Part shown: in pieces, positions 24,080-28,293 of the stretch | How the letters are laid out: each line of letters begins with the position of its first letter | Numbering within the stretch: position 1 is the first letter of the stretch | Source of the DNA: Meiothermus sp. Pnk-1 | Lineage (GTDB): Bacteria > Deinococcota > Deinococci > Deinococcales > Thermaceae | Assembly (NCBI RefSeq): GCF_003226535.1 | Contig: NZ_QKOB01000002.1 | Span: 62,001-126,000 of the forward strand | Length of the DNA: 64,000 nucleotides | Direction of reading: 5' to 3' | Translations under genes and position numbers: made by a program | The notes under the pieces: model-generated | Seen by the model: only the letters and a program-made list of their open reading frames with translations | Told to the model about the DNA's origin: nothing | Database searches by the model: none

Positions 24080-25234
24080 ATGCCATTACTCTCTCGTATG
24101 AACCCTATCTACCGCATCCTCGCCGCCTCCTTTTTCTGGGGCATGGGCGGGAGCCTGAACTGGCTTTTCCTAAATTTTCACCTCGAGGCCTTGGGCCTTA
24201 GCAAGTCCCTGATCGGTTACGCGAACGCCACCCCCGCGGTGGCCGGGGTGCTCTTCAGCCTCCCCTTGGCCTTTTTGATCCCCCGGCTGGGGTATGCCCG
24301 CAGCATCCTGCTCGGAGGACTGCTGGCGATATTGGGGGTACTGGGTGTGGCCTCGGGGGTAGCGGTGTTTCCCGGGCTTTTCCTCTCTGGGGCGGGCCAG
24401 CTTTTCGTGACGGGAGCGGTGGCCCCTTTATTGGCCCGGCTGGTGCACCCCGATCAGCAGGTCAGGGTGTTTGCTTGGCAAGGGGCGTTGGGTACGGGCT
24501 CGGGTTTTCTGGGGAGCCTGATCGGGGGGGTGCTGCCCCACCTGATTGGGCGGGAGTTCGTAATGTACGGGGTGGCCCTCTCCTTTGTGCTCTCCGTGCT
24601 CTGCGTGAGGGGCCTGAAAGACGCCCCAGGGTCGGCGAGGCGTTTTGCTCTGCGGAATCCACGGGCTTGGCTCTTGCTGCTGTTGCCTCAGGGCATCGTC
24701 TCGCTCGGGGCTGGGCTCACCATGCCCTTTCTCAATCTTTTTTTGCGGGGTAAGTTTGCCCTCGATTACACCGCCGTGGGGGGGCTCTTCGCCCTTAGCT
24801 CCCTCGCTACCATGGCGACCATGCTGGTGCAGCCTTATCTGGTGCGGCGGATGGGCAAGGTGGGGGCCATCATCTTCGTCCAGGCGGCCTCGTTGCCGTT
24901 TTTGGTGATCCTGGCCTGGGTGCCGTGGCTCCCTTTGGTCACCGTGGCCCTCTTCGTGCGGGGGGCCTTGATGAACGCGGCGGGGCCGGTGTACACCGCG
25001 CTGGTCATGGACCATCTGGACGAAGAGGAGCGCTCGGGCTTTTTGCTCGTCGAGGGGAGCGTTTGGCAGCTGGGCTGGGCGGGTGCAGCGGCGGTTTCGG
25101 GGCGGGTGCAGCAGGCCATGGGGATCGGGGGGTTCGATTATCTGTTCGGGGCCATGCTGGGGCTGTACATGGCTTCGATCCTGTGTTACCCGCTCTTTTT
25201 CCGCCCGCGGCGGCGTGCGGCGGAGGGGGTTTAG
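24080..25234 (+). CDS. MFS transporter
   Basis: A 384-residue integral membrane protein with about 12 predicted helices. It has a motif A-like loop (FLIPRLGYARSILLGG) after TM2 and a repeat at VRRMGKVGAIIFVQ. The substrate is unknown. An ATG at 24098 (NPIYRILAASFFWGMGG) is an alternative start; it lies seven bases after ATTACT, which fits the leaderless pattern better. Confidence 0.85.
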   Translation: MPLLSRMNPIYRILAASFFWGMGGSLNWLFLNFHLEALGLSKSLIGYANATPAVAGVLFSLPLAFLIPRLGYARSILLGGLLAILGVLGVASGVAVFPGLFLSGAGQLFVTGAVAPLLARLVHPDQQVRVFAWQGALGTGSGFLGSLIGGVLPHLIGREFVMYGVALSFVLSVLCVRGLKDAPGSARRFALRNPRAWLLLLLPQGIVSLGAGLTMPFLNLFLRGKFALDYTAVGGLFALSSLATMATMLVQPYLVRRMGKVGAIIFVQAASLPFLVILAWVPWLPLVTVALFVRGALMNAAGPVYTALVMDHLDEEERSGFLLVEGSVWQLGWAGAAAVSGRVQQAMGIGGFDYLFGAMLGLYMASILCYPLFFRPRRRAAEGV

Positions 25235-25315
25235 GGTCAGCTCGCCGGTAGGGAAAAGCCAAGCGCACGGTTACATCAGCCGCAAGCTGGGATCAAGTGC
25301 GTTGAAGGCCTTGAA

Positions 25316-25942
25316 CTATTTTTGCTCCGAGACCGCTGCGTAGGCTCCCAGGGCGATCATCGTACAACCCGCCGTGACCCTCGAGCCCCGGCGAAACCGG
25401 GGGCTATGGTTCATGCGAGCCCCCAGCGGGCCGGCCAGGAGCGCCACGATCACGTCGGCCAGGGTGTTCAAGGCCACCGAGATCGAGCCCAGCAGGACGA
25501 ACTGCCAAAATACTCCTCCCGCTGCCCGGTCCACGAACTGGGGGATAAAGGCCAGGAAGAACAGGGCGGTCTTGGGGTTGAGCACCTCGGTCACGATGCC
25601 CTGGCGAAAGGCGGCCCAGTTGCTGCCGAGGACTTTCACTTTCGGCTGATGCGGTTCGCGGCTCAGCAGGGTGCGCACCCCGAGATAGACCAGGTACGCG
25701 GCCCCGGCATACTTCACCACGCTAAACGCCACCGCTGACGTGGCGAGGAGCGCCGAGATACCGATGGCTGCGGCGAGGACGTGAACCATACCCCCGACCC
25801 AGGTTCCCAGCGATGAGGCTATACCCTCCCCCCGGCCCCCGCGCAGGCTACGGGCCAGCACATACAGCATTCCCGGGCCGGGGGTCGCGGCCAGCACTAC
25901 CGCAGCGGCCAAGAAGGTGGCGAAGGCGTGGGGTTGGGGCAT
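25316..25942 (-). CDS. LysE family amino-acid exporter
   Basis: A 208-residue protein of the LysE/RhtB family with five to six helices. The family signature is AATPGPGMLYVLARSLRGGRGEG near residue 18, and LNPKTALFFLAFIPQFV is at about 118. RhtB-like members export homoserine, threonine or leucine; the substrate here is not certain. The ATG follows TATAAT by six bases, and the start codon is only 17 bp from that of the divergent glyoxalase-like gene. Confidence 0.9.
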   Translation of the reverse strand: MPQPHAFATFLAAAVVLAATPGPGMLYVLARSLRGGRGEGIASSLGTWVGGMVHVLAAAIGISALLATSAVAFSVVKYAGAAYLVYLGVRTLLSREPHQPKVKVLGSNWAAFRQGIVTEVLNPKTALFFLAFIPQFVDRAAGGVFWQFVLLGSISVALNTLADVIVALLAGPLGARMNHSPRFRRGSRVTAGCTMIALGAYAAVSEQK

Positions 25943-25947
25943 GGGGT

Positions 25948-25954
25948 TATTATA
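25948..25954. promoter_or_regulatory. Overlapping divergent -10 boxes (lysE-type / glyoxalase-like)
   Basis: The plus strand reads TATTAT (25948-25953), six bases before GTG 25960. The minus strand reads TATAAT (25954-25949), six bases before ATG 25942. The two boxes share six of seven positions. Both spacings fit leaderless initiation, so two RNA polymerases could not occupy the site together. Confidence 0.65.
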
Positions 25955-25959
25955 TTGGA

Positions 25960-26592
25960 GTGACCGTCCTTGACCACCTTGTCGTCGCGGCCCGAACCCT
26001 GGGCGAAGGCTCCGCTTACGTCGAGCAGGTTCTGGGCCTACCGACGAGCCCCGGCGGGAAGCACCCCAAGATGGGTACCCACAACCGCCTACTGAACCTG
26101 GGTGGCGGGGTCTACCTCGAGGTCATCGCCATAGACCCTCAAAGCGCTCCGCCAGACCGCCCGCGCTGGTTCGGCCTCGACTCCCAAGCCGTGCGAGAAA
26201 GCCTCGAGGCTGGCCCCCGGCTCATCCACTGGGTGGCCCGCACCGATGGGTTGGAAGGGGCGCTGGCAAGACTGCCCGAACTGGGCCGTATCCACCGCAT
26301 GAGTCGGGATGACCTTTCTTGGGACATCACCATCCCCGACGACGGGAGCCTGCTCGAGGGTGGCCTGGTCCCCACCCTGATCAGCTGGGGCGATACCCCC
26401 CACCCCACCACCCGGCTCCCCGAGGTGGGGTGTCGGCTGGTGGGGCTGCGCGGGGTTCATCCCCGGCCCGAGCGGGTAGCCCAGGCGCTTTGGAAACTGG
26501 ACATGGCCGAGGCGCTCGAGCTGCACCAGGGCGAGCAGGTCGGCCTCGAGGCCAAAATTCAAACCCCCGGGGGCTTGCGCCTGCTCCGATAG
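25960..26592 (+). CDS. Glyoxalase-like domain protein
   Basis: A 210-residue protein that begins VLDHLVVAARTLGEGSAYVEQVLG, typical of the glyoxalase-like family (vicinal oxygen chelate fold, Pfam Glyoxalase_3 type). A second half-module follows (LIHWVARTDGLEGALARL). His6 and the Glu of YLEVIAID may bind a metal. The reaction is unknown. The GTG start is set by the divergent promoter and by the domain start. Confidence 0.8.
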   Translation: MTVLDHLVVAARTLGEGSAYVEQVLGLPTSPGGKHPKMGTHNRLLNLGGGVYLEVIAIDPQSAPPDRPRWFGLDSQAVRESLEAGPRLIHWVARTDGLEGALARLPELGRIHRMSRDDLSWDITIPDDGSLLEGGLVPTLISWGDTPHPTTRLPEVGCRLVGLRGVHPRPERVAQALWKLDMAEALELHQGEQVGLEAKIQTPGGLRLLR

Positions 26593-26658
26593 CCCGGCGG
26601 CCTATACCTTTTCCCGGTAAACTTGGTAGGCTAGACCCACAACCCCAAGGAGTCAGCC

Positions 26659-28293
26659 ATGAACGGCCTGATGATGGATTTCCCCCTCACCCTAAACCAC
26701 TTCCTCGAGCGCGCCGGGAAGCTCTTTCCCCAAGAGGAGATCGTCACCCGCCTTCCCGACAAATCGCTCCACCGCTACACCTACGGCGACTTTTACCGCC
26801 GCGCGCGGGCCTTGGCCGAGGCGCTGCAAAAAGCCGGGCTCGCTCCGGGCGACCGGGTAGCGACCCTCTCCTGGAACACCTACGCGCACCTCGAGGCCTA
26901 CTTTGGCATCCCCGCGGCGGGGGGCGTGCTGCACACCCTCAACCTGCGGCTGCACCCCTCCGATATCGCCTACATCATCAACCACGCCGAAGACCGCTTC
27001 CTCATCGTAGACGACGTGCTCTTGAAGCTTTATGAGGCCATCAAGGATCAGGTCAAGCTGGAGCGGGTGATCGTCGTGCCGCTCACCGGGCAGCCCGTCC
27101 CCGAGGGGCTTACCAGCTACGAGGACTTCCTGGCGACCGCCAGCGGCGATTTCGCCTACCCCGAGATCGAAGAACGCGCCGCGATGGGCCTGTGCTACAC
27201 CTCGGGAACCACCGGGCGGCCCAAGGGCGCCCTCTACTCCCACCGCTCGATGGTGCTGCACAGCCTGGGCTCGGCGTTGCCGGATGCCCTCAACCTATCT
27301 GGCCGCGATACCTTGTTGCCGGTGGTGCCGATGTTCCACGTGATGGCCTGGGGGCTGCCCTTCACCGGGGTGATGACCGGGTGCAAGCTGGTGATGCCGG
27401 GGCCGCACTTGGACCCGGTGAGCCTCCTGGACCTCTACGAGGGCGAAAAAGTCACCAAGACCGCCGGGGTTCCCACCATCTGGCTGGGCATCCTCCAGGC
27501 ATTGCAGAAAGAGCCCAACCGCTGGAAGCTCGAGCCCATGGAGATGGTGGTGGGGGGTTCCGCTGCCCCCGAAGCGATGATCCGGGCCTTCGATCAGTTC
27601 GGCCTCAAGGTGTTGCACGCTTGGGGCATGACCGAGACCAGCCCGCTGGGAACCACCAGCCGTCTCAAGCGCCACCTGTTGAACCGACCCCCCGACGAGC
27701 AGTACCGCTACCGGGCCAAGCAGGGCCTGCCCACCCCGCTGGTCGAGGTGCGGGCAGTGAACGAGCAAGGCCAGGTGCCCTGGGACGACAAGACCCTGGG
27801 CGAACTCCAGGTGCGGGGGCCGTGGGTGGCCTCGAGCTATTTCCGGCTCGAGGCCGAGCGCGACAAGTGGACCGAGGACGGCTGGTTCCGCACCGGCGAC
27901 GTGGTGGCCATCGACCCCGAGGGCTACGTGCGCATCGCCGACCGCACCAAGGACCTGATCAAGTCGGGCGGGGAGTGGATCAGCTCGATTGACCTGGAAA
28001 ATGCCCTGATGAGCCACCCGGCGGTCAAGGAGGCGGCGGTAATCGCCCTACCGCACCCTAAGTGGGATGAGCGCCCCCTGGCGGTGGTGGTGCTCAAAGA
28101 GGGGATGAGCGCCACCCCGGAGGAGCTGCGGGCGTACCTCGAGCCCAAATTTGCCAAGTGGTGGCTGCCCGACGCCTTCGTCTTCGCAGACGAGATCCCC
28201 CGCACCAGCACCGGCAAATTCATGAAAGCCCGCCTGCGCGAGCAGTACCAGGGATATCGCTGGGAGCAGGGCAAAGCGAGCGCCGAGGGATAG
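26659..28293 (+). CDS. Long-chain fatty-acid-CoA ligase (AMP-binding)
   Basis: A 544-residue ANL-superfamily enzyme. The P-loop is YTSGTTGRPKGALYSH (about residue 180), the A5 motif is HAWGMTETSPLGT, the A7/A8 region is WFRTGDVVAIDPEGYVRIADRTKDLIKSGGEWIS, and the catalytic Lys lies in RTSTGKFMKARLR. Sequence and length match the Thermus long-chain acyl-CoA synthetase. It activates fatty acids for beta-oxidation or lipid synthesis. AAGGAG precedes the ATG. A thioesterase gene follows by 17 bases. Confidence 0.93.
   Translation: MNGLMMDFPLTLNHFLERAGKLFPQEEIVTRLPDKSLHRYTYGDFYRRARALAEALQKAGLAPGDRVATLSWNTYAHLEAYFGIPAAGGVLHTLNLRLHPSDIAYIINHAEDRFLIVDDVLLKLYEAIKDQVKLERVIVVPLTGQPVPEGLTSYEDFLATASGDFAYPEIEERAAMGLCYTSGTTGRPKGALYSHRSMVLHSLGSALPDALNLSGRDTLLPVVPMFHVMAWGLPFTGVMTGCKLVMPGPHLDPVSLLDLYEGEKVTKTAGVPTIWLGILQALQKEPNRWKLEPMEMVVGGSAAPEAMIRAFDQFGLKVLHAWGMTETSPLGTTSRLKRHLLNRPPDEQYRYRAKQGLPTPLVEVRAVNEQGQVPWDDKTLGELQVRGPWVASSYFRLEAERDKWTEDGWFRTGDVVAIDPEGYVRIADRTKDLIKSGGEWISSIDLENALMSHPAVKEAAVIALPHPKWDERPLAVVVLKEGMSATPEELRAYLEPKFAKWWLPDAFVFADEIPRTSTGKFMKARLREQYQGYRWEQGKASAEG

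Follow-up and report, generated by a model that had tools for sequence, protein, structure and literature searches.

A putative leaderless bidirectional promoter in the 17-bp gap between divergent lysE and glyoxalase-like genes of Meiothermus sp. Pnk-1

In a stretch of 64,000 nucleotides from Meiothermus sp. Pnk-1 (the whole of it hereafter called the window), a LysE-type exporter gene and a glyoxalase-like gene run in opposite directions from a gap of only 17 bp. We consider it likely that this gap is a bidirectional promoter of the 18-bp class between two leaderless genes, that it arose when lysE was inserted in reverse, and that expression is weak and constitutive in both directions. The promoter appears to be real and well formed, and it is probably functional. 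The case brings together bidirectional promoters and leaderless messages, both of them already known, and is mostly ordinary in that sense.

The gap, its start codons and its merged hexamers

The gap spans positions 25943-25959 and reads ggggttattatattgga on inspection of the window sequence. It is flanked by the ATG of the minus-strand lysE ORF (A at 25942) and by the GTG of the plus-strand glyoxalase ORF at 25960, in agreement with the preliminary description of this DNA, which had placed 17 bp between a LysE-type ATG and a glyoxalase-like GTG. The lysE gene (25316-25942, minus strand) encodes 208 aa with a match to PF01810 (E=2.1e-31), and its partner (25960-26592, plus strand) encodes 210 aa with a Glyoxalase_3 domain (PF13468, E=8.8e-48); both are predicted to be leaderless. 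Homologues support the predicted start codons of both genes. In the lysE frame ATG 25942 is the earliest possible start, and homology to the nearest LysE relative begins at residue 3. For the glyoxalase gene, GTG 25960 is the sole usable start near the conserved N-terminus TVLDHLVVAARTL, a segment that starts at residue 8 in the glyoxalase of a same-genus relative, which fits this GTG.

The entire putative common promoter core is contained in the gap. A -10 hexamer TATTAT (25948-25953, plus strand) ends 6 nt from the GTG of the glyoxalase-like gene, and a -10 hexamer TATAAT (25954-25949, minus strand) ends 6 nt from the ATG of lysE, so the spacing of six bases reported earlier on either side was found again. 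The two hexamers merge into a 7-bp core, TATTATA, in which they share five positions (25949-25953) and not the six bases first described. For lysE there is also a weak -35-like hexamer, TGGTCA (25971-25976, minus strand), separated from TATAAT by a 16-nt spacer; the combination matches at 10 of 12 positions, with 0.1 such matches expected in the region. This hexamer lies within glyoxalase codons, which bears out the earlier suggestion that -35 contacts would fall inside the opposite gene. The same promoter-match search of the region returned no -35-like match for the glyoxalase direction. With a -35-like match on its side alone, lysE is likely the stronger direction, and the glyoxalase direction may be weak because it lacks a -35 element and starts with GTG. 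By inspection of the 17-bp gap, neither start codon is preceded on its strand by a GGAGG-like Shine-Dalgarno stretch at a workable distance. We found no RNA families in the region.

The arrangement on both sides of the gap resembles that of leaderless genes in Deinococcus-Thermus, where roughly 30-40% of genes are leaderless with a -10 motif adjoining the ORF, and where this motif suffices as a promoter and a -35 element is not needed (PMC12340547; PMC3160421). Such genes are recognised by TANNNT located 6-7 nt before the start and by the absence of a Shine-Dalgarno sequence, and here TANNNT stands at 6 nt, with no Shine-Dalgarno sequence, on either side. This spacing is also the norm of the genome itself. 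In roughly 0.8 Mb of this genome, 703 genes were called with candidate starts. Among them the distance from TANNNT to the start peaks at 6 nt (99 genes), followed by 7 nt (67 genes), and the remaining spacings from 0 to 19 nt hold 8-28 genes each, about 15 at most of them. In 33 of the 99 genes with 6-nt spacing an A directly follows TANNNT, and that single base is enough for the box to read as a -10 on both strands. In mycobacteria, ATG or GTG at +1 is enough for leaderless translation. The spacing of the genome and the recurrence of the lysE -10 in a relative (see below) give good support to the earlier proposal that both messages would be leaderless, and predicted leaderless transcription in both directions from one common -10 is likewise well supported. 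The published descriptions of leaderless genes in this phylum treat single genes, whereas here two opposed motifs are merged, and the words 'divergent' and 'bidirectional' are absent from PMC12340547.

If each start codon is taken as the predicted +1, the two start sites would be 18 bp apart. According to Warman et al. (2021, Nat Microbiol), as relayed by PMC10268837 and PMC12825309, the divergent starts of bacterial bidirectional promoters lie 7-25 bp apart and most often 18. The 18-bp class has a shared, near-symmetrical -10, in which -7T of one direction pairs with -11A of the other and vice versa, and a T at -18 that is usual and not obligatory. In the gap, position 25949 would be -11A for the plus direction and -7T for the minus direction, and position 25953 -7T for the plus and -11A for the minus direction. 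A T is found at -18 in the glyoxalase direction (position 25942), and a C in the lysE direction, because the partner start is GTG. The near-symmetrical -10 and the reciprocal pairing are shared with the published class, and the predicted distance of 18 bp and the -18T in one direction would be as well. On the predicted starts, the geometry would be exactly that of the commonest class that Grainger and colleagues describe for bidirectional promoters in bacteria. The difference is that here the predicted starts are the start codons of protein genes, with no leader expected on either side. Our literature search, whose coverage was incomplete, returned no paper in which leaderless genes and bidirectional promoters are brought together as they are here.

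We hypothesise that the core TATTATA serves as the -10 on either strand and that the housekeeping sigma factor loads RNA polymerase onto it in either orientation. Transcription would then start at the A of the lysE ATG or at the G of the glyoxalase GTG, and each message would open with its start codon and be translated without a Shine-Dalgarno sequence.

Recurrence of the layout in related genomes

A search of the 64-kb window for the exact symmetric pattern CAY-N5-TANNNTA-N5-RTG gives a single site, where shuffles lead one to expect 0.03. In this genome the raw 17-bp pattern has five sites and its reversed control none, and in a Thermus-like genus (27 genomes, summed) it has 158 sites against four for the control. 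The 19-bp form is likewise enriched among 50 family genomes, the 15-bp form shows no enrichment in the family genomes, and a 17-bp pattern with the core moved by 3 bp stays near background in the Thermus-like genus. Across the 50 genomes the preferred spacing seems to depend on the genus, the 17-bp form being dominant in the Thermus-like genus (g4) and the 19-bp form in another (g3).

We rejected these raw counts as proof of double-leaderless pairs, since many sites combine one leaderless gene with a chance CAT or CAC in its neighbour. Most of the genome-wide matches that we inspected are one-sided leaderless genes, the raw count alone overstating significance, and many matches are one orthologous site repeated across several species. 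The raw counts mainly mirror the abundance of leaderless genes with a symmetrical -10. They were set aside in favour of a gene-level count, which is the fair test. Among 265 divergent pairs (2.4 Mb, parts of two genomes pooled, genes called by a simple custom caller), five have a common symmetrical -10 located 5-6 nt from both start codons. The expectation is 0.61 if the one-sided leaderless rate is applied and 0.05 under the rate for pairs in which neither side has that spacing; the Poisson P against 0.61 is 4e-4, or 4e-3 without the window's own pair, on what are small numbers.

Other pairs of this kind were read from their translations, and their gene names, like the label 'Thermus-like' for the genus, are our own. 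Outside the window, this genome has a 19-bp gap with the symmetrical -10 TACGTTA between a coaX-like gene (type III pantothenate kinase) and a yraN-like gene, both predicted to be leaderless (G000:C2:41269-41293, locus L081). In the Thermus-like genus, a 17-bp divergent gap separates an sdaAB-like gene from a gene for a signal-peptide protein (G029:C1:218303-218325 and matching sites in G022-G028). The eight species among the listed matches retain the two -10s and the two 6-nt spacers, and the gap sequence and flanking bases otherwise vary. Both proteins of this pair were read in three loci, and genome G029 also has a 19-bp double-protein pair. As a further case we tried a conserved leaderless ORF of 11 aa that lies opposite a 199-aa gene in the Thermus-like genus. 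It was rejected, since it seems to run antisense to the last part of the upstream gene.

A broader reading could be considered, which we hold tentatively, at somewhat less than even confidence: that the Thermaceae repeatedly use head-to-head leaderless pairs in which one symmetrical -10 is common to both genes and the start codons stand exactly 17 or 19 bp apart, and that the present pair arose through an inserted leaderless gene whose backward-firing -10 became the promoter of an operon gene that had lost its own.

Origin of the divergent pair

Conservation of the gap in relatives, proposed earlier as a check, was not observed: the lysE/glyoxalase gap was found in none of 50 family genomes, and a scan of GTDB contigs with the LysE protein found nothing. 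This lack of conservation among the relatives examined counts against the explanation that we favour. In a same-genus genome (G001) the order is nth, MFS transporter, glyoxalase and acyl-CoA synthetase, with no lysE at the locus, and the MFS gene lies directly 5' of the glyoxalase gene, whose start overlaps the MFS stop as ATGA. In the window the corresponding neighbours are an MFS transporter gene (24080-25234, plus strand) and, 3' of the glyoxalase gene, an AMP-binding acyl-CoA synthetase gene (26659-28293, plus strand), the latter a conserved neighbour. In genus g2 the glyoxalase gene directly follows nth. DNA similarity between the window and G001 stops near 25205, in the tail of the MFS gene, and restarts at 25963, the second glyoxalase codon. 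The segment at 25205-25962 thus looks like an inverted lysE, together with some 100 bp of flanking DNA, that was inserted precisely into an operon whose ancestral order was nth-MFS-glyoxalase-acyl-CoA synthetase.

Because lysE is absent from G001 and the similarity breaks at 25205-25963, the likeliest event is a reverse-orientation insertion of lysE between the MFS gene and the glyoxalase gene, in which the C-terminus of the former and the N-terminus of the latter were trimmed. That G001 lost lysE is the less parsimonious reading, since genus g2 also lacks it at this place. The junctions of lysE gave nothing convincing in the way of insertion-sequence traces or repeats. The nearest LysE relative, in another genus and at 64% identity, also has TATAAT followed by 6 nt and a GTG (TATAATccggctGTG), and it lies 3' of a response-regulator-like gene and in the same direction. 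The simplest history that we can infer is that lysE came with its own leaderless promoter, and that the glyoxalase gene gained a promoter on the reverse face through the A after TATAAT in combination with a GTG at the junction. The -10 would have become symmetrical in this way, and its reverse face probably now drives the detached glyoxalase gene.

Alternative readings and biological meaning

For the glyoxalase gene, the chief competing explanation is transcription that reads through from the MFS operon. Only lysE would then use the promoter, the glyoxalase gene would still be transcribed by polymerase that comes from the nth-MFS operon and crosses lysE in antisense, and TATTAT would be a by-product of the symmetry of TATAAT. 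The ancestral operon order is consistent with this, as is the -35-like match on the lysE side only, and read-through could supply glyoxalase mRNA because a search of 25200-26700, which takes in the stretch from the MFS gene to the glyoxalase gene, gave no terminator-like site. However, the glyoxalase start has no Shine-Dalgarno sequence, so that translation off a long mRNA would be poor, and the distance from the -10 to the GTG is exactly the leaderless norm, and we regard read-through as unlikely. It is very unlikely that one or both messages start elsewhere, either with a leader or at a promoter within the opposing gene, and that the overlapping hexamers are chance AT-rich sequence. Promoter motifs are short and their use is not provable by sequence alone, but a symmetric pattern this rare in shuffles, with the genome's modal spacing on both sides and a lysE -10 that recurs in a relative, is poorly explained by chance.

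A regulated switch is very unlikely too. In such a switch a signal would control polymerase binding in one direction and turn the other gene off, and two facts are in its favour: the geometry bars simultaneous binding, and in published E. coli cases one side was repressed when the other was strongly activated. The earlier claim that transcription must be mutually exclusive holds as far as steric exclusion, since two polymerases cannot occupy the 7-bp core and their binding is mutually exclusive at any instant; beyond that it does not stand. The repression seen in E. coli required strong activation of the other side, and in all five bidirectional promoters tested there the basal activity was too low for competition. 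Moreover, no regulator gene lies between lysE and the glyoxalase gene, no operator-like repeat was seen in the 17-bp gap, the two proteins have no clear functional link and their pairing is not conserved, so the compact switch of the preliminary description is unsupported. The divergent lysG/lysE regions of Corynebacterium and Mycobacterium (PMC5648196) also have a lysE-family gene divergent from its neighbour, overlapping promoters and one leaderless lysE start. In M. tuberculosis, however, 108 bp separate the two genes, lysE is paired with the LysR-type regulator and an inverted-repeat operator is present, whereas the pair described here lacks a regulator and joins lysE to a glyoxalase-like gene. 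Under the bidirectional leaderless promoter that we favour, the two directions would be physically exclusive at any instant and yet both weakly and constitutively active, and the likeliest outcome is weak, independent, constitutive expression both ways.

If this reading is true, the pair would be near the smallest possible for divergent genes, with all promoter contacts beyond the short gap made in protein-coding DNA. The recurrent geometry is modestly interesting, and an origin by gene insertion is plausible. It would suggest how leaderless genomes may absorb inserted genes, the reverse face of a symmetrical -10 promoting any start codon at the right distance, and it predicts that the gaps between divergent genes in leaderless-rich bacteria would be quantised at 17 and 19 bp.
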